Positions 2 through 11,672 of a stretch of 11,672 nt of DNA are shown in pieces. Numbering within the stretch: position 1 is the stretch's first letter; each line of letters opens with the position of its first letter. A program made the position numbers and the translations under genes. The stretch comes from Deltaproteobacteria bacterium (lineage in GTDB: Bacteria; Desulfobacterota; DSM-4660; Desulfatiglandales; Desulfatiglandaceae), in assembly GCA_013349725.1 (NCBI GenBank), contig DUZB01000086.1, forward strand, positions 1 to 11,672, read 5' to 3'. The notes beneath the pieces were generated by a model that saw nothing but the letters and a program-made list of their open reading frames with translations, was not told the origin of the DNA and searched no databases.

Positions 2-541
2 GCGTCCACCTTTGTGGCGGAAGCCGTGGTCGCCAATGCGGCCGACGAGAACGAACTGGCGCGTCTCGGACCGGAGAAAAGAGACGCCGTCGTCTGCGCC
101 ATCGGCGATGATTCCAAGGAATCGTCCATTATCTGCACGGCCCTCCTCCGTCAAATGGGCGCCCCGTTTGTCGTATCCCGCGCCAATGACAAAATGCACC
201 AGCGCATTTTACAACTGGTGGGAGCGCATCAGATCATCAATCCGGAGCAGGAATTCGGCCAGCGCTTCGCCAATCGCCTGCTTTATCGGCATATTATCGC
301 GCAAACACCTATCGGAGATGACCTGCATCTCACCGAAATCCACGTCCAGCCGGCCATGGTGGGGAAAAGTCTTATCGAACTTGCCCTTCCAAAGCGTTTC
401 AACGTTATGGTAGCCGCAATCCGTCGTGGGAAACCAGGCCGGCTGATGCAACCTTCCCCGAGCGAGCCTTTGCAGGCGGGGGACGATCTGATAATCGTTT
501 CCACGGAAGCAGTGATCCCCAAACTGATGGAAGGAGTCTAA
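2..541 (+). CDS. ktrA: KtrA/TrkA-family K+ uptake regulatory subunit (RCK protein), 5' truncated by window edge
   Basis: This is the cytoplasmic gating subunit of a Ktr/Trk-type K+ uptake system. It would form a ring under the membrane subunit and bind nucleotides. The frame is open from base 2, so the GTG at 14 is not the real start. Roughly 45 residues with the GxGxxG nucleotide loop lie outside the window. What remains is the second half of an RCK_N (TrkA-N) domain, with the family-typical stretch NAADENELARLG followed by VVCAIGDDSKESS and GAHQIINPEQEFG. A TrkA_C domain follows (MVGKSLIELALPKRFNVMV ... LQAGDDLIIVS). The implied full length of about 220 residues fits single-unit KtrA rather than the duplicated E. 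coli TrkA. The membrane partner (KtrB/TrkH-like) is not in the window and may lie just upstream. The next gene begins 2 bases after the stop, so they are probably co-transcribed. The family call is firm; KtrA versus TrkA is inferred from length and similarity. Confidence 0.9.
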   Translation, partial: ASTFVAEAVVANAADENELARLGPEKRDAVVCAIGDDSKESSIICTALLRQMGAPFVVSRANDKMHQRILQLVGAHQIINPEQEFGQRFANRLLYRHIIAQTPIGDDLHLTEIHVQPAMVGKSLIELALPKRFNVMVAAIRRGKPGRLMQPSPSEPLQAGDDLIIVSTEAVIPKLMEGV

Positions 542-4591: not shown

Positions 4592-4936
4592 TTATCGATG
4601 CTTTTTCGCTTCTTCCTTGAAGTGTTCTATCTGGCTTTCCAAACCTATGGCACTTTCCACGTCCACCACGAACGCGATCCCCGTGCCCGGTTCTATAAAT
4701 CTTCCGGCCTGGTAAATGGCGCCCAGCACCGGTTCAACGAGCCTTTCTTCCAAGAGAAAGAGAACCACGTCGGTCTGCGCTTCAAGGGTCAGGCCGAAGA
4801 AAGTCTTTGCCTCGTGTATGCCTGTACCTCGAGCCGGGATAATGGTGGCCCCTGTACCGCCGGAAGCCTTGGCCGCGTCTACGATTCGATCGGTTTCCGT
4901 GGTTTTGACCATTGAGATAATCAATTTTAATTTCAT
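4592..4936 (-). CDS. PII-family signal protein with a shortened T-loop, paired with DUF1538 membrane genes
   Basis: The product is a small (114-residue) trimeric signalling protein of the GlnB/GlnK superfamily. PII proteins bind ATP/ADP, often 2-oxoglutarate, and control transporters or enzymes by direct contact. The opening MKLKLIISMVKTTETDRIVDAAKASGGTGAT and the late stretch GTGIAFVVDVESAIGL (84-99) fit the PII fold. Between the PII strands, where E. coli GlnB has a long T-loop with uridylylated Tyr51, this protein has only TGIHEAKTFFGLTLEAQ, with no Tyr. Uridylylation control is therefore unlikely. The B-loop region (AGRFIEPGTG) is about three residues longer than in GlnB and lacks its lysine. 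The ATG is 1 base after the stop of the DUF1538 gene, with AAGGGAG just upstream, so the two are translationally coupled. Control of the DUF1538 membrane proteins is the natural inference, by analogy with GlnK-AmtB and SbtB-SbtA. Confidence 0.88.
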   Translation of the reverse strand: MKLKLIISMVKTTETDRIVDAAKASGGTGATIIPARGTGIHEAKTFFGLTLEAQTDVVLFLLEERLVEPVLGAIYQAGRFIEPGTGIAFVVDVESAIGLESQIEHFKEEAKKHR

Positions 4937-4937
4937 G

Positions 4938-5723
4938 TCATTTCTCCCTTCTCATCCTTAGACTCCGGCGCTCCAGCCAGCGTGCCAACTGAGCGTACCC
5001 CATTACGGTCATGATGGGGAAGACACTCGCAAAGGCAATCAATCCGAATCCATCCAGTGCAGGATCACGGCCCGGAATCGTTTCCGATAGACCAAGGCCC
5101 AGGGCAGCAACCAGGGGCACGGTCACCGTCGAGGTCGTGACCCCGCCTGAATCATAGGCAAGGGCGATAATCTCCCGGGGAGCGAATACCGTCTGGATCA
5201 CGACAATAACGTATCCTGCAATGATATAAATATAAAGTGGCGTTCCCGTCACGATGCGAAACGTGCCGATTCCTATTCCAATGGCCACCCCGGTTGCAAC
5301 AGCCAATCTCAATCCCCACTGGCTCAGACTGCCTCGTGAAACCTCGTGCGCTTTGTAGCATACTGCAATCAATGCCGGCTCCGCAACGGTCGTGGCAAAT
5401 CCGATCAGGATGCCGAAGACATACACCCATGCATAGGCGTGCCAGGGCGCATCAGCCGGGACCGTTTTCGAGCCGAAAACAAATTCTGGCGCTGACAATT
5501 GCTTCGCCATGATCTTGCCTATGGGAAACAGAGCGGTTTCCAGTCCGTCCAAGAAGAGGGTCAGGCCCACAAGAACAAACACAAAACCCGCCACTACGCG
5601 CTTCCAGTTCGGTATGGGTTTTCGCAAAACCACAAGCTGGAAAAACAGCAGCAAAACCAGAACCGGAAAGACATCCTTGACGGTCAGGCCGAGAGTATGA
5701 GCAAATGTGGTAAGAAGTTCCAT
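4938..5723 (-). CDS. DUF1538 membrane protein, second copy of a tandem pair
   Basis: The product is an integral membrane protein of 261 residues with about six or seven hydrophobic segments and a basic cytoplasmic tail (LERRSLRMRREK). DUF1538 proteins are presumed transporters of unknown substrate. Family motifs are [11 protein letters not shown] (111-121), FAPREIIALAYDSGG (180-194), a Thr/Ser-rich stretch [14 protein letters not shown] (196-209) and [10 protein letters not shown] (224-233). All recur in the preceding gene, so the two are paralogues; many family members elsewhere carry both halves in one chain. It begins 15 bases after the stop of the first copy, with only a weak ribosome site (GGATACTGG), which fits coupled translation and a paired complex. 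It has a longer polar loop (about 77-96) than its partner. The family call is firm; the transport role is inferred. Confidence 0.85.
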   Translation of the reverse strand: MELLTTFAHTLGLTVKDVFPVLVLLLFFQLVVLRKPIPNWKRVVAGFVFVLVGLTLFLDGLETALFPIGKIMAKQLSAPEFVFGSKTVPADAPWHAYAWVYVFGILIGFATTVAEPALIAVCYKAHEVSRGSLSQWGLRLAVATGVAIGIGIGTFRIVTGTPLYIYIIAGYVIVVIQTVFAPREIIALAYDSGGVTTSTVTVPLVAALGLGLSETIPGRDPALDGFGLIAFASVFPIMTVMGYAQLARWLERRSLRMRREK

Positions 5724-5737
5724 CCAGTATCCATAAC

Positions 5738-6508
5738 TCAGCGAAAAAAGATCATACCGTATCCCATAACGAACACGATCGGCAATAATGAGGCAAACGC
5801 GATAAGTCCGAAGCCATCCACCAGAGGGTTACGCCCGCGGATTGTTGAAGCCAGACCCACACCCAGGGCCGTTACCAGCGGCACAGTTACCGTCGATGTG
5901 GTGACGCCACCGGAATCATAGGCGACACCCACGATTTCCTTCGGCGCAAAGGCCGTCATGATCATAACGGCGACGTAGCCGCCGATGATAAGGTAGTGAA
6001 CAGGCCACCCCTTGAGGATTCGTATGAGGCCCACCAGAATAGCAATCCCCACGGAAAATGCAACGGTGAGCCGGAGCCCCAAGGCATAAGACTGCATGGA
6101 CGTCGGATCAGAACCGATAAGATTCCCCTTGGCTGCCACCATGGCGGCTTCTTTCGTCACCGCGATGAGAGCCGGCTCCGCGATGGTCGTGGAGAAACCG
6201 AGTCCGAACCCGAACAGGAGCAGCCAGAAAAGGCTTCCCTTGCGGGCAAAGGCCTCCGCCATCGCTTCTCCGATGGGAAAGAGTCCTATCTCCAGCCCGA
6301 CAACAAAAAGGGCTAACCCTAAAATGACCAAGATAAGTCCCACAAATACATTCAGGACATCAGGAAAGGGCTGCCGCACCACGGCTAACTGGAAGATCAA
6401 TATAACCAGGATGATCGGGAGGAGGTCCCGGCAGGCCCCGACGATATTCAGGCCAAATCGCCTGAGCGGGTTGACAATATATTCTATAAGTTCATTTTTG
6501 CCGGCCAT
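5738..6508 (-). CDS. DUF1538 membrane protein, first copy of a tandem pair
   Basis: The product is an integral membrane protein of 256 residues, a paralogue of the next gene. Hydrophobic helices lie at about 29-45, 52-72, 92-110, 143-165, 170-188 and 235-253. Shared motifs are [12 protein letters not shown] (106-117), [15 protein letters not shown] (187-201), [14 protein letters not shown] (203-216) and [10 protein letters not shown] (231-240). A conserved Asp in a Gly/Ser/Thr-rich membrane region would suit ion or solute binding, but no substrate is known to me. An in-frame TTG at 6523 could extend it by five residues, but GGAGG stands 4 bases before the ATG at 6508, so ATG is chosen. It begins 15 bases after the YitT gene. 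Confidence 0.86.
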
Positions 6509-6523
6509 ATGCCCTCCAAGCAA

Positions 6524-7399
6524 CTACCAATGGGGCTGATTCCCGATGCGGGCGCCCATGACCTCCAGGGTGTCTGAGACCACTACAAAGACATAGGGAT
6601 CGATATCCCGAACAAGCCGCTTCAGGCGGGGAAGTTCCTGGAAGGCGATGACCGTGTACAGGACCTTCATTTCGTTTCCTGTATACCCTCCCCTGCCCTC
6701 TAAAAGGGTCACGCCCCGGTCAATTTTTTCCACAATCTCCCGGGCGATTTTTTCCCAATGGGGGGAAATAATGAAAACCGCCTTTCTCTGGCTCAACCCC
6801 ATAACCACCAGATTGATAATATAAGAACTGACAAAGATGAAGATCATCGTGTACAGGGCCGCCTCCAGCGAGAAGAGGATGGCGCCTGCCGCAAGGATCA
6901 GGCTGTTGAGTGCCAACATGGTGGTTCCCAACCGGATGGAGAACCGCTTGAGGAGAATCACCGAAAGGACGTCCAGACCGCCCGCCGACCCCAAGGACCG
7001 CAGGGTAATCCCCGCCCCAGTCCCAGTGATGATCCCTGCCAGGATAGCGTTCAGGATCTTGTCATGGACAGGCACGGAGAGGTTTATCCATTCCAGCGCC
7101 CCGGTGAAAAACAACATCCCCACGATGCTGTAGAGAAAAAAGCGGCGCCCCACGTACATCCAGCCAAGGACGAAGACAGGAATGTTCAAAAGGAGATAGA
7201 GCACCCCAACCGGAAAAGATGGAACAAGGTAGTGGATAACGATCGAAACACCGGTAAATCCGGCCCCGAAAAACTGGTGGGGAATGAGGATCCCGTTCAC
7301 GGCCACTGCACAGATACCGCTCCCCACAGCTAAGAGAAAGAAGTTCCAGAGCATCTGCTTCGCGGGCCCCAGAGCGGCGCGCATAGTTAATTTTGACAT
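6524..7399 (-). CDS. YitT-family membrane protein (YitT_membrane/DUF161 + DUF2179)
   Basis: The product has 291 residues, the standard length. The N-terminal part (about 15-205) carries about six membrane helices and the family signature LGSAGGLDVLSVILLKR (136-152). The C-terminal DUF2179 domain (about 207-287) has GVTLLEGRGGYTG (229-241) and resembles small ligand-binding regulatory domains. The family's substrate is not established; a transporter or exporter role is commonly supposed. The start is supported by AGGA 5 bases upstream. This AGGA sits inside the last codons of the epimerase gene, whose stop is 2 bases before this ATG, so translation is coupled. Its place between the epimerase and the DUF1538 pair suggests that this membrane protein and the metabolic enzymes serve the same compound. 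Confidence 0.9.
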   Translation of the reverse strand: MSKLTMRAALGPAKQMLWNFFLLAVGSGICAVAVNGILIPHQFFGAGFTGVSIVIHYLVPSFPVGVLYLLLNIPVFVLGWMYVGRRFFLYSIVGMLFFTGALEWINLSVPVHDKILNAILAGIITGTGAGITLRSLGSAGGLDVLSVILLKRFSIRLGTTMLALNSLILAAGAILFSLEAALYTMIFIFVSSYIINLVVMGLSQRKAVFIISPHWEKIAREIVEKIDRGVTLLEGRGGYTGNEMKVLYTVIAFQELPRLKRLVRDIDPYVFVVVSDTLEVMGARIGNQPHW

Positions 7400-7401
7400 C
7401 T

Positions 7402-8475
7402 TTATCCTGATTTTTCCGGGTCAAAACCCAACCCTGGTTTGTTTGTTGGAAAAAGGATTCCGTTTCGAAGAATGACGGCGCCGTCGGCGGGATCGTTCAG
7501 TAGCCCCAGATGACCGTCCAGATCAGCATAAATCACATTGGGCCTCGCCAGGGCAAAATGAAGGCCCGCGGCGATGGCGAGGGCCGACTCATCCATGCAC
7601 CCCACCATGACCTCCAGTCCGGCGGAGCGGGCAACAGCGTTAACCTGGAGGGCCTCCCCGATCCCTCCCACTTTCATGAGCTTCACGTTCACCATGTCGG
7701 CAAGTCCCCGCCGGGCAATGCGAAAGGCATCCCTCAAGGTCATCAGGGCCTCATCGGCCATGACCGGAATGGAGACCCCCCTGGTGACGTGTCCAAGCAG
7801 ATCGGGCAGGCCTTTGGGAGTGGGCTGCTCCAACAGCTCCAGGCGAGCGTCCCGGGTCTGCTCCACGAACCGGATGGCATCCTCCACGGTGAACCCCTGG
7901 TTAGCATCAAAACGGAGTTCTATATCCCTTCCCACGGCCTCCCGCACCTTCCATACCCGGGAGATATCAGCATCCACATGGAGCCCGCCTTTCAGCTTCA
8001 GGGACCGAAATCCTCTCTTCTTCCAGTACAACCCGTGTTCCACGGTTTCCTTTTCGGGCATAATGCCGATGGTGACGCTGGTCTTTATGCGGTCCCGGAA
8101 GCCCCCCAGGATTTTCCAAAGGGGAAGACCTGCTGTCTTACCAAGAAGGTCAAAGAGGGCCATGTCCACTGCTGCCAGGAGGGACGGGTATCCTTTCAGG
8201 TGATGTTTCAACCTCAGCATGATCCGCGCGGCCCGCAGAGGGTCGGCGCCCTTCAAAAACGGAACTATGGTAGATTCTATCACACCCGGAAATCCTTCAA
8301 CTTTTTCCCCGGTCACCCCTTCGCTGGGGGCGGCACAGCCATATCCGGTGATCCCCCTGTTGGTCTCCATGCGGATGAAAATGTTGGTGACTTCCGCCAC
8401 ACTCTCATACGCAATCGTATAGGGCTCCGACAGACGCAACAGGACCGGCCATGCCTCAATTCGGGTAATTCGCAT
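7402..8475 (-). CDS. Enolase-superfamily dipeptide epimerase / DgcA-like N-acetyl-D-glutamate racemase
   Basis: This is a cytoplasmic Mg2+-dependent epimerase or racemase of 357 residues, with an N-terminal capping domain (1-about 125) and a TIM barrel. Residues match the dipeptide epimerase (AEE) pattern: the base motif K160-L-K162 in SLKLKGG; metal ligands D190 (RFDANQG), E216 (LLEQP) and D241 (MADE); the second base K268 (NVKLMKVGG); and the substrate-recognising D318-L-D320 (YADLDGH). All catalytic residues are present. AEE enzymes interconvert L-Ala-D-Glu and L-Ala-L-Glu; the close homologue DgcA racemises N-acetyl-D-glutamate in the D-glutamate pathway. A DUF1611/DgcN-like gene in the same operon makes the second option attractive, but the sequence alone does not settle the substrate. 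The start is 6 bases after the fusion gene's stop; the nearest GAGG is 12 bases upstream, so initiation is probably coupled. Confidence 0.9.
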   Translation of the reverse strand: MRITRIEAWPVLLRLSEPYTIAYESVAEVTNIFIRMETNRGITGYGCAAPSEGVTGEKVEGFPGVIESTIVPFLKGADPLRAARIMLRLKHHLKGYPSLLAAVDMALFDLLGKTAGLPLWKILGGFRDRIKTSVTIGIMPEKETVEHGLYWKKRGFRSLKLKGGLHVDADISRVWKVREAVGRDIELRFDANQGFTVEDAIRFVEQTRDARLELLEQPTPKGLPDLLGHVTRGVSIPVMADEALMTLRDAFRIARRGLADMVNVKLMKVGGIGEALQVNAVARSAGLEVMVGCMDESALAIAAGLHFALARPNVIYADLDGHLGLLNDPADGAVILRNGILFPTNKPGLGFDPEKSG

Positions 8476-8481
8476 GAAGGG

Positions 8482-10878
8482 TTAATACCTCTTCTGATAG
8501 ATCTCATCCAGACTGAGGCGCTTGAGATCTTCCACAAACTCAATGAGGTGTTTGATCATCACCGCCCACATCTTCTCACCCTTTTCCCTACTCCCTTTTG
8601 TAGGATCCCCTAAGACCCCCGTTGGCGAGATCTTTGAAGTGTGCGCGTACCAGCCCACACTCCGCTTGTTGGTGAAGTCCAGATAGCGGCTTGAAAACCG
8701 GGGAATGAACTTCCGAATCTTCCCCGAACGTACCAGGTGAGGTCGGGTGGCCAGTGTGGTGCTGGTCTCAATCTCCCCGGAATGAACGTCGTTGGGCGTT
8801 TCGGCCATGGCGTAGATATCGGGATCGCTTGTTTCCCCCGTATCCACACAGGTGAAGATATGGGAATCCCGATTGATCATCTGGGCCGCGAAATGAAGGG
8901 CGGGGCCGTTGCCGCCATGACCGTTGATGATAACCAGTTTGGTGATTCCGTGTCGGACGGCGCTCATGCCCACGTCATACACGATCTGCGACAAGGTCTC
9001 GGGATTGATGCTGATGGTTCCGGCAAAATCCTCATGGTGATAGCTGACGCCATAAGGGATCAACGGGAGGACCACAGGCCTGGGGGTCGTGCACCCTTCG
9101 GCGACCTTTCTTGCCATATACTCGGCATCAAAGGCATCACAATCGAGCGGCAGATGGGGACCATGCTGTTCAATGGCCCCTACGGGAAGAAGAGCCACAT
9201 CCACTTCCTGGAACCGGATCTTTGCCTCGGGCCACGTGAGCTCTCCGAGCAGATAATTCCCATTTTCATATCCCTTCTCCTCCTGGTCTTTAAAACCGCC
9301 GGCGGGGGTTCCGTGATGGGTTTCAAAGGGGTAAGGCCTTTTGAGATCAGGTTCCCCCCACAGATCGAAATCCACCCAGGTTCGCCCGCGACGTATACAG
9401 GATCCTTCGGCATGCTCTAAAATGAGCTGGTACAGGGGTTCACGAAGATCTACCGGAATCCCTTCCACGGGAGATCTCTCCCGGTCAAAACGGAGCTTCA
9501 GGACTTGCGGGCGCGAGGTCGCACGGACAGACCCAATCCTCGCTTCATGGACAAGGCCTTTTTTCATCAAGAGAAAACCAAGATGCTCCACCACTTCTCT
9601 CTCCGGATGGATTCCCTTGGCAGCAAGGCTTTCCAGACAGCCCCCTATTTGATCCTCCCGATAACTGCATTTCACGGGATCCGCATCCATGGCCATGAGC
9701 ATCCCGACAATTCTCCTGCACTTCTCGCAGCGGCCGCAGGGCCTCACCCCTTCCGCCTCCCTGTGGGCAGCATGGCACGAGACCTGATGCCGCTGCAACT
9801 CCGGATAACGTTCAACAAGTATCTTTTGGATAAGAAATTCCGACAGGGGTCTCAGAATGGAAAATTGGGTAATGCCCCAGTTCTTCCGGTAAAAATACCG
9901 GGTCAAGGCGTCATCGAAATAGCGACTCTGATCATACAAACCATCATAGTGAGTGATGCCTTTATAGGATATCCTGCGGGTGGTATCGAACTCATCCCCG
10001 ATCACCAGTCTCCCCACATGCCTTTTACGCAGGATGGGCAGTGCTCCAAAAAGAAAGACGGCTACGGTCCATAGCCGTATGGGATATTCGTCGGACCGCA
10101 CATTGGAAAAGTCTTTTCGGACAAAGGGAAGATGCCGCACCATCCAGTTAAAAAGACGGTCCGAGTTGGTCCACACCCTGGCCGTATTCGGGATATGGTC
10201 GCGGAAATGATGATAGGCGTTTAAGGCGGTAAACCAGTGCCTGCCCGATTCATTGAGAAAGATGGGATGAACCTCATGGCCGACTTCCCTGAGCAGCCCG
10301 AAGCTCAGCAGGCTGTCTTTCCCACCGCTGGAAAGCACGGCGTAGCGGGATGGATCGGTGATCCAGGTCTTCCGGGGTTCACGACTTCCGACATTTTTAT
10401 CCTTCAAGGGCTCATTTTCACCAAAAATGAGCCGCGTCTGAAGGTAGCTTTCCCGTTTTACCGCAGGAAGAGCCCCTGCCCTCCCCTGCAGAAAAGGGTT
10501 GGGCTCCAGGAACTTCTTCACGAAAATCTCGCGGGCCGTATTGCGGGCCATCTCTTCCAGAAAACGCCTGTCGTACTTATCAAAATGGTCCAGAAAAGCA
10601 ATCTCTTCACAGAAAAGGCCGTAGTTCAGGGCCACCTGGGCGGAAATCATCGCTGCGAGATTCAGAGATTCCGCTTCGCCCGGTTCAAAGACATCTTCTT
10701 CGAAGGTATATTGGAGATTCATGGAATCGGTTTCGCCGTTCCGTATCACTCGATAGGGAGCGGTGAGACGGCGTTTTTCCAACTGGACCGGACCCACCTC
10801 CAGCCTTTCAATAACCTTGAGAATCGCTAACGGGTCCTGTTGGGAATCCTCTTCGTGCGTTTCCATCTTTTCATCCAT
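8482..10878 (-). CDS. Fusion of a QueC-like PP-loop ATPase and a creatininase-family amidohydrolase
   Basis: One open frame encodes 798 residues. Residues 1-170 are a helical N-terminal region I do not recognise. Residues about 178-400 are a PP-loop (adenine nucleotide alpha hydrolase-like) domain, with the ATP motif S184-GGKDS-189 and a Cys cluster C368, C381-G-R-C384-E-K-C387, spaced like the zinc site of QueC. PP-loop enzymes adenylate a carboxylate or similar group before attack by a nitrogen or sulfur nucleophile. Residues about 542-798 are a creatininase-family domain: GELTWPE, then VGAIEQHGPHLPLDCDAFD with likely metal ligands E570, H572 and D581, then NGHGGN (H654) and DVHSGEIETS (H699, E702). 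This family hydrolyses amides or cyclic amides. The ATG at 10878 overlaps the upstream gene by 8 bases; a longer frame up to 11037 overlaps DUF1611 and is Arg/Trp-rich, so it is rejected. The ATG at 10866 is an alternative. I know of no standard protein with this architecture. Confidence 0.85.
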   Translation of the reverse strand: MDEKMETHEEDSQQDPLAILKVIERLEVGPVQLEKRRLTAPYRVIRNGETDSMNLQYTFEEDVFEPGEAESLNLAAMISAQVALNYGLFCEEIAFLDHFDKYDRRFLEEMARNTAREIFVKKFLEPNPFLQGRAGALPAVKRESYLQTRLIFGENEPLKDKNVGSREPRKTWITDPSRYAVLSSGGKDSLLSFGLLREVGHEVHPIFLNESGRHWFTALNAYHHFRDHIPNTARVWTNSDRLFNWMVRHLPFVRKDFSNVRSDEYPIRLWTVAVFLFGALPILRKRHVGRLVIGDEFDTTRRISYKGITHYDGLYDQSRYFDDALTRYFYRKNWGITQFSILRPLSEFLIQKILVERYPELQRHQVSCHAAHREAEGVRPCGRCEKCRRIVGMLMAMDADPVKCSYREDQIGGCLESLAAKGIHPEREVVEHLGFLLMKKGLVHEARIGSVRATSRPQVLKLRFDRERSPVEGIPVDLREPLYQLILEHAEGSCIRRGRTWVDFDLWGEPDLKRPYPFETHHGTPAGGFKDQEEKGYENGNYLLGELTWPEAKIRFQEVDVALLPVGAIEQHGPHLPLDCDAFDAEYMARKVAEGCTTPRPVVLPLIPYGVSYHHEDFAGTISINPETLSQIVYDVGMSAVRHGITKLVIINGHGGNGPALHFAAQMINRDSHIFTCVDTGETSDPDIYAMAETPNDVHSGEIETSTTLATRPHLVRSGKIRKFIPRFSSRYLDFTNKRSVGWYAHTSKISPTGVLGDPTKGSREKGEKMWAVMIKHLIEFVEDLKRLSLDEIYQKRY
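9261..9284 (-). promoter_or_regulatory. Strong ribosome-binding-site-like sequence with ATGs at the PP-loop/creatininase junction, out of frame
   Basis: On the minus strand, AGGAGG (9284-9279) is followed 9 bases later by ATG (9269-9267) and by a second ATG (9263-9261). This is exactly where a stand-alone creatininase would begin (NYLLGELTWPE). Both ATGs are shifted relative to the creatininase frame; one extra base in the GGG at 9261-9259 would put them in frame. It is either a relic of two separate genes, a site masked by an indel or sequencing error, or chance in a Gly/Glu/Lys-coding stretch. Confidence 0.45.
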
Positions 10879-11672
10879 TTGACGAGCTCTTGATATATGG
10901 CGCCAAGACCTCAACCAGCTTACCCGTATCCCCCAGGAGAACGTCCAGGGCCGGGAGCCCCGTTTCCTTTGTAATCTGTTCACAGGCCCCGGGGATACTC
11001 TCCCTTTCCATCTCCTCATGATTGATGGTGACGGCAATCACCGGTTTTCCCGACAGAAGTTCAATGGCCGCGATCTGTTTCTTCAGGGGATGCATGGGGT
11101 ATCCGGGAAAACCATCATACTCTTTCCTGGCTGGTGCATGCTGAAGGATCACCACATCGGGCCTGCCTGCCGCCAGGATCTCGAATCCACCCGGGTATGC
11201 TGGATTCATCAGACTCCCCTGCCCTTCAATAACGATCACCTGAGGCCGGCACTCCTTCCATGCCGTCCAAACGGCATGCTCAATCTCCCCCGACACGAAA
11301 TCATTGATGAGGGAATCCAAAATGATCCCGTGGGCGACCCCCTGCATCCACGCCGTCTGCCCTGTACCGATAAGCTCTCCAGAATATCCGGCAGACCGCA
11401 GGACGTCCAGAAGAATCCATGCGGTGGTCCGCTTCCCGATGGCGGAATCGGTGCCCAGGACCGCAATTTTTAGGCAGTCGACCTCTTCGATCTTGCCGCT
11501 GAAAAAATGGAGGACATCCCGTGGCGGCGGCTTTCGAATATCCCGTATCTTCACATGGTATTTTTCCGCCAGGCGCACCATTTCCCGATCTTCCGAGAGA
11601 AAGTCATGAAGTCCCGAGTCGACATTCAACCCGTTTTCAATGGCGGTTATGACATCCCGGCGGGCGAAGTCG
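10871..11672 (-). CDS. DUF1611 P-loop protein, DgcN-like N-acyltransferase, 5' end beyond window
   Basis: The frame is open to the window edge (upstream residues read DFARRDVITAIENG), and the first possible start, TTG at 11629, lies inside the conserved N-terminal domain, so the true start is outside. About 267 residues are visible of an expected 330-350. The visible part begins with the end of the DUF1611 N-terminal domain (NVDSGLHDFL ... IRDIRKPPP). It continues with a P-loop domain holding the Walker A-like KIAVLGTDSAIGKRTTA, then GELIGTGQTAWMQG, VIVIEGQGSLMNPAYPGG and VVILQHAPARKEYDGFPGYP, all typical of the family. The homologue DgcN is described as a D-glutamate N-acetyltransferase working with the racemase DgcA. 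A DgcA-like gene two places downstream supports that reading. The stop overlaps the next gene's ATG by 8 bases, so translation is coupled. It is the first visible gene of the minus-strand operon; any promoter is outside the window. Confidence 0.87.
   Translation of the reverse strand, partial: DFARRDVITAIENGLNVDSGLHDFLSEDREMVRLAEKYHVKIRDIRKPPPRDVLHFFSGKIEEVDCLKIAVLGTDSAIGKRTTAWILLDVLRSAGYSGELIGTGQTAWMQGVAHGIILDSLINDFVSGEIEHAVWTAWKECRPQVIVIEGQGSLMNPAYPGGFEILAAGRPDVVILQHAPARKEYDGFPGYPMHPLKKQIAAIELLSGKPVIAVTINHEEMERESIPGACEQITKETGLPALDVLLGDTGKLVEVLAPYIKSSSNG

Follow-up and report, generated by a model that had tools for sequence, protein, structure and literature searches.

The window analysed here, 11,672 nucleotides of contig DUZB01000086.1 (assembly GCA_013349725.1) from a Deltaproteobacteria bacterium, carries on its minus strand a gene (8482..10878) for a protein of 798 amino acids (aa) in which a PP-loop ATP pyrophosphatase is joined to a creatininase-family amidohydrolase. 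Judged from its sequence, the protein is a true bifunctional chain with both sites intact. It is encoded third in an operon of four genes, and its PP-loop part is distantly related to MurL, the one-way, ATP-to-AMP peptidyl-glutamate epimerase of cell-wall synthesis. With a probability of about 0.5, we propose that, within one four-gene pathway, the PP-loop part adenylates a carboxylate of a peptidyl or N-acyl amino acid, while amide cleavage falls to the hydrolase part.

The fusion gene and its relatives

The gene opens with an ATG at 10878 and closes with a TAA stop; all features given below lie on the minus strand. The N-terminal domain (residues 1-170; 10369..10878), which has a QatC-like and MurL-like fold in an AlphaFold2 (AF2) model, is followed by the PP-loop core with a Cys4 region (residues 171-445, end approximate; 9544..10368), placed by profile, model and alignment. 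Motif position and alignment locate the pyrophosphate-binding motif SGGKDS at residues 184-189 (10312..10329); the presence of SGGxDS on a PP-loop fold identifies this part as a PP-loop ATP pyrophosphatase. Cys368-x12-Cys381-x2-Cys384-x2-Cys387 occupies 9718..9777. A variable linker (residues 519-543; 9250..9324), delimited in the alignment of fused proteins, leads to the creatininase-family amidohydrolase domain (residues 544-798; 8485..9249), which was assigned from PF02633 and creatininases in the PDB. PF02633 was the sole Pfam family over the fusion protein (residues 546-782, 230.8 bits; cut-off 31.3), and the Pfam scan gave no match for the N-terminal/PP-loop part. Metal ligands, a role that we take from creatininase structures, are presumably E570, H572 and D581 (9136..9171), H654 in NGHGGN (8917..8919) and H699. 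The last lies in HSGEIE (H699..E704; 8767..8784), which includes E702 and was placed by motif, alignment and PDB creatininases. An earlier note on this DNA had described a single-frame fusion with SGGKDS, the four cysteines and these six hydrolase residues, and all of them were found where it had placed them.

Conservation was determined in an alignment of 68 fused proteins longer than 740 aa, that of the window included. S184, G185, G186, K187 and S189 were present in 68/68 and D188 in 64/68 (Glu in the other 4). Cys 368, 381, 384 and 387 were likewise kept in all 68, as were E570, H572, D581, H654 and H699; E702 was found in 65/68, with Asp in 3. The linker between flanking anchors was 13-49 residues long (median 21), and residues 521-543 contained no column conserved at 95%. 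A variable linker without a conserved column suggests that the two domains are probably autonomous modules.

Relatives were collected in two ways. A homologue search with residues 1-540 gave 2906 matches among 8000 candidates scored, of which 120 were listed. A scan of genome contigs gave 199 relatives, of which the best 80 loci were kept; locus counts below refer to these, and genome-level tests to 20 genomes chosen from those behind them. In 75/80 loci, both parts were read in a single frame without stops. Among the remaining five, one (L018) had a stop before the start, so that both parts lie in one open frame in 76/80 when it is counted; three (L024, L070, L071) had stops elsewhere in the gene, and L047 was the only locus split at the junction, into two adjacent genes. 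The earlier note had considered that homologues might always encode the two parts separately; the 75 open frames show otherwise. Fused length was found in 107/121 proteins (the 120 listed homologues plus the query), and the 14 unfused ones had 528-557 aa and no hydrolase. One of these (P0119) reaches the beginning of the hydrolase and could be a fused protein cut short.

At the junction of the window's gene, an AGGAGG-like stretch (9260-9285, minus strand) is followed by an ATG in a different frame from that of the hydrolase part; this may have arisen by chance in a charged linker or be left over from fission and fusion. P0003, which is 87% identical to the window's protein, is unfused. Both observations would fit a junction created by an indel or by misassembly; however, with one open frame in 75/80 loci plus L018, fused length in 107/121 proteins, and a stop-free frame of 790 codons at the fusion in Desulfosarcina widdelii (chromosome record; L076, genome G001), this origin is refuted for the family and an artefact is extremely improbable. 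In a tree of 54 proteins (14 unfused, 40 fused; root not known), six state changes were counted. Because the unfused forms are scattered among the fused ones, the unfused state more likely arose by repeated splitting or loss than the fused state by repeated fusion. The unfused homologues P0034 and P0037 end in LDGIYQKRY, which resembles the hydrolase C-terminal tail SLDEIYQKRY, as if the hydrolase had been excised from within a fused gene.

By record title, the hosts of the 80 loci belong to Deltaproteobacteria/Desulfobacterales, Acidobacteria, Gemmatimonadota, Bacteroidetes, Ignavibacteriae, Planctomycetota, Latescibacterota, Aminicenantes, KSB1, Zixiibacteriota and other groups. Named carriers are Desulfosarcina widdelii PP31, strain NaphS2 and Flexithrix dorotheae DSM 6795. 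The architecture had been called unusual, which holds only in part: it is widespread, with 80 kept of 199 relatives from one contig scan.

Kinship of the two parts

The PP-loop core matched MurL with an hhalign probability of 97.6 (E 3.4e-12, 190 columns) and QueC with 33.3 (E 4.5e-4), the QueC alignment holding 4 sequences only. In a control for alignment depth, subsets of 4 MurL sequences gave 93-97 in 8/8 trials and the match was robust with one sequence in 3/3; single QueC sequences gave 7-47, and a reversed profile gave 0.5%. Run against the 20 whole genomes, the MurL profile picked the fusion in 15 (E 3e-7 to 3e-4), as frames of 708-847 aa at the operon coordinates. QueC family PF06508 did not match the window's protein at E 0.001, and its sister P0003 fell short of the cut-off of 22 with 12.5 bits. 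Two other homologues matched DUF6395 with 21.3 and 17.7 bits, below the cut-off of 25. PF26298/PF26299 were present in 0/120 listed homologues versus 120/120 MurL rows (precomputed Pfam column of these rows).

Like the fusion, MurL has an N-terminal domain, a PP-loop and a Cys4 region (SC...CG.C.KC), as well as the motif FS-[IF]-L-RPL-[SN]-E. It differs in having GGGKDS in place of SGGKDS and no creatininase domain, and its invariant substrate-side blocks NGHTPFS and SNES.ANE were not found in the fusion, which has other blocks there. Structure models of the fusion PP-loop part (AF2) and of MurL both had QatC as best PDB match: the former by a VIA match over 22..446, spanning N-terminal domain and core, and the latter over 15..417. 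QueC and Cap9 matches to the fusion model began at residue 176-177 and therefore do not cover the N-terminal domain. On these models, the domain has the same fold as the corresponding N-terminal regions of MurL and QatC; the 170 residues that the earlier note had left unassigned are thus not unique. Sequence comparison of the domain with MurL gave no signal. A forced local alignment placed in register a Glu117 that both families keep, though with no confidence, and global-mode alignments disagreed.

Profile similarity to the QueC group (QueC, Cap9, QatC) was weaker than that to MurL. The four-Cys PP-loop had been described as QueC-like; the four cysteines are real (68/68), but the profile is nearer MurL (97.6 vs 33.3). 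Passages of PMC5808125 and PMC8788868 describe MurL as using ATP and forming AMP, with adenylation of the alpha-carboxylate proposed by its discoverers, and call its mechanism unclear. Since MurL is nearer than QueC, nitrile formation fits the PP-loop part less well than does adenylation of the carboxylate group on a peptidyl or N-acyl amino acid.

The hydrolase part shares PF02633 and the metal-ligand set with creatininase, MftE, IolN and ArfB. However, it fell under the equivalog cut-offs of all four, including those of true creatininase (TIGR04448, 99.9 vs 235 bits) and MftE (TIGR03964, 143.7 vs 172 bits). In an alignment to PDB creatininases, the position of the creatininase Glu that we take to be residue 122 is G656 in the fusion, and the 68 proteins have Gly (52) or Asp (16) there. 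The creatininase metal centre claimed earlier is therefore intact as in the family at large, but G656 shows that it is not that of a true creatininase. On the listed homologues, Joint Genome Institute (JGI) names such as 'creatinine amidohydrolase/.../7-cyano-7-deazaguani...' were seen; such compound names indicate that automatic annotation had already recognized both parts.

The four-gene operon

The operon encodes, in order, a threonine-synthase-like pyridoxal-phosphate (PLP) enzyme, a DUF1611/DgcN-like protein, the fusion, and a dipeptide-epimerase-like enzyme of the enolase superfamily. In the window, the DUF1611 gene lies upstream of the fusion (10871..11672, minus strand; PF07755, 207.1 bits) and is cut by the window end, which is why the PLP gene is missing; the epimerase-like gene lies downstream (7402..8475, minus strand) and was recognized by library scans and structure comparison. 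Neighbouring operon genes are separated by a 6-base gap or share an 8-base overlap. Same-strand neighbours within 8 kb were counted with tblastn, and only loci with a long enough contig were taken as testable. The DUF1611 gene stood beside the fusion in 65/69 testable loci, the PLP gene in 62/65 and the epimerase-like gene in 53/61. All four genes were found in 43/52, and where all were found their order was identical (56/56). The loci of Desulfosarcina widdelii (L076) and strain NaphS2 (L001) carry the complete set.

DUF1611 is the family of DgcN, as shown by an NCBIfam match. The profile NF041892 (cut-off 480) gave 112.7 bits for the piece in the window, which is cut by the window end, and 140.7 bits for the full-length protein of locus L009. 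DgcN is presented in part of PMC12363236 as key to a D-glutamate route. The DgcN-DgcA pathway, like this operon, has a DUF1611 protein and an enolase-superfamily epimerase encoded together; however, both operon counterparts fall below the equivalog cut-offs, and the operon adds the PLP enzyme and the fusion.

The PLP enzyme of one representative (L036) scored 422.4 for PRK06381 (over 266) and 104.5 for TIGR00260 (under 167.1). Another ThrC over the cut-off was found in 19/20 genomes, the exception (G012) having a 148.1-bit candidate under it. A role of the operon enzyme as sole threonine synthase was therefore rejected, and it is regarded as a paralogue.

Solved dipeptide epimerases 3jva, 3rit and 1jpm were nearest to the operon epimerase. 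K160/K162/K268 and D190/E216/D241 were kept in 52/52 sequences and D318-x-D320 in 51/52, with one gap; we assume that these comprise two catalytic lysines, three acidic metal ligands and a DxD motif that binds the free amino group of the dipeptide. Against the L-Ala-D/L-Glu epimerase equivalog, the enzyme scored 212.5 vs 500 bits. Position 24, Arg24 in the Bacillus subtilis Ala-Glu enzyme, where it presumably contacts the Glu side chain, is Glu in 48, Gln in 3 and Asp in 1 of 52. Glu at this position makes L-Ala-D/L-Glu unlikely as substrate, hinting that the enzyme acts on a different dipeptide. A cationic side chain in the substrate is possible; we do not claim it, because the 3rit enzyme, which we take to be cationic-specific, also has Arg at position 24.

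Two loci (L020, L026) paired the fusion with the PLP gene alone. In the genome of the first (G011), an epimerase-DUF1611 pair lies ~83 kb away, as if the operon were made up of two modules; in that of the second (G021), no DUF1611 match was found. Replacement of a missing epimerase by a non-homologous gene was not supported, the following genes differing among the loci looked at; some enolase-superfamily homologue was found in 8/8 genomes searched on this question. A search of the window and 18 of the 80 loci at the Rfam gathering level found tRNAs only and no riboswitch.

Directly after the epimerase, the window encodes a YitT-family membrane protein (6524-7399, minus strand), whose open reading frame cluster occurs in 9 loci including the window; it is a possible transporter partner of the operon. 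Two DUF1538 genes follow (4592-6523, minus strand), UmpA-like with 347.2 bits and UmpB-like with 304.8 bits, both under NCBIfam cut-offs, and after them a PII-domain protein (35 bits, over the Pfam cut-off of 25). The pair and the PII-domain protein probably form a cation antiporter with its regulator.

Proposed function and alternatives

The fusion, both conserved sites, the MurL kinship and the operon were computed directly; from here on, we infer the chemistry, its order and its substrate. Residues 1 to ~445, grouped with the PP-loop enzymes MurL, QatC and QueC, would bind ATP at SGGKDS and most likely convert the carboxylate group of a peptidyl or N-acyl amino acid into an acyl-adenylate, with release of pyrophosphate and then AMP. 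Residues 544-798 would act as a metal-dependent amidohydrolase of the creatininase family that cuts an amide bond in a compound which this adenylation consumes or makes. The PLP enzyme would supply or consume an amino acid, and the DUF1611 protein, which we liken to DgcN, a protein named as an N-acetyltransferase and presumed to modify an amino group, would modify the amino group of that amino acid. After activation of the carboxylate by the PP-loop part, the dipeptide-epimerase-like enzyme would invert an alpha-carbon, and the hydrolase part would release the end product. That the two domains take successive steps in one pathway, as the earlier note had suggested, is the most reasonable reading of two intact sites on one chain; nothing in these data speaks for its other suggestion, an ATP-driven ring opening.

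An amidotransferase is an unlikely alternative: here the creatininase-type domain would split an amide donor and pass ammonia or an amine to the acyl-adenylate of the PP-loop part. Fusion of PP-loop synthetases to amide-splitting domains is a recurring design, and the fused state is dominant in this family; asparagine synthetase also pairs a glutaminase domain with a synthetase. However, we know of no creatininase-family glutaminase, and a linker as long and variable as this one (13-49 residues) does not suggest a tight tunnel, both of which count against such a transfer. GMP synthetase (PP-loop synthetase with an amide-splitting domain, in passages of PMC13329287 and PMC10526850) and NAD synthetase (PP-loop synthetase with a nitrilase-like glutaminase, in part of PMC3376133) likewise hold synthetase and amidohydrolase fused on one chain, although the hydrolase domain of the present protein is unrelated to theirs. 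MurL, the nearest family, uses no ammonia as described in passages of PMC5808125 and PMC8788868. Because the pairing recurs in GMP and NAD synthetases, the amidotransferase was kept as the main rival to adenylation and amide cleavage in one pathway.

We also doubt that the PP-loop part is an amide or peptide ligase coupling amino acids with amines, with an MftE-like hydrolase removing a protecting residue. This alternative was modelled on Cap9, which joins a nucleobase to a protein N-terminus. The 8-base overlap and 6-base gap between the operon genes of the window leave no room for a precursor peptide, and PADLOC gave no match for the fusion. Membership of a defence system was rejected, PADLOC giving only QueC at 11.5 bits for P0003.

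There is little chance that the fusion is a MurL-type, ATP-driven L-to-D epimerase supplying D-glutamate for the cell wall. Its kinship to MurL would fit, as would two of the 20 operon genomes (G001, G008), in which both a MurI above the cut-off and a true MurL are missing. However, MurI was over the cut-off in 16/20, a true MurL is present in two Bacteroidetes-type genomes that lack MurI at that level (G007 of locus L031 and G015 of L052), and G001 has a D-amino-acid aminotransferase candidate of 267.3 bits, slightly short of the 277.45 required. Cell-wall D-glutamate is therefore not the general purpose of the operon. The best D-amino-acid aminotransferase match in G008 (genome of L004) was 140.9 bits, also under the cut-off.

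The earlier note knew of no described protein with this architecture, and none was found in the literature searched: among the matches listed, there was no description of creatininase with PP-loop, of DUF1611 with epimerase, or of the operon. A term search of the main text of a 2026 QueC-family paper (PMC13329287) found neither creatininase nor MurL.

We tentatively raise the possibility, itself rather doubtful, of a coupled enzyme class in which a creatininase-type hydrolase feeds or drains a MurL-type acyl-adenylating PP-loop enzyme on one chain. It would be a new amidotransferase or else a device, driven by ATP in one direction, in which a dipeptide or N-acyl amino acid is activated, inverted and released to yield a metabolite not yet described but common among bacteria of sediments and the sea. 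A two-enzyme chain that is conserved across many phyla, retains almost all of both active sites and is regularly accompanied by three partner genes points to a genuine, unassigned metabolic pathway, and the named carrier strains make the family testable. As the mechanism of MurL is unclear, the fusion family would offer a second, independent system in which PP-loop adenylation may drive alpha-carbon chemistry.
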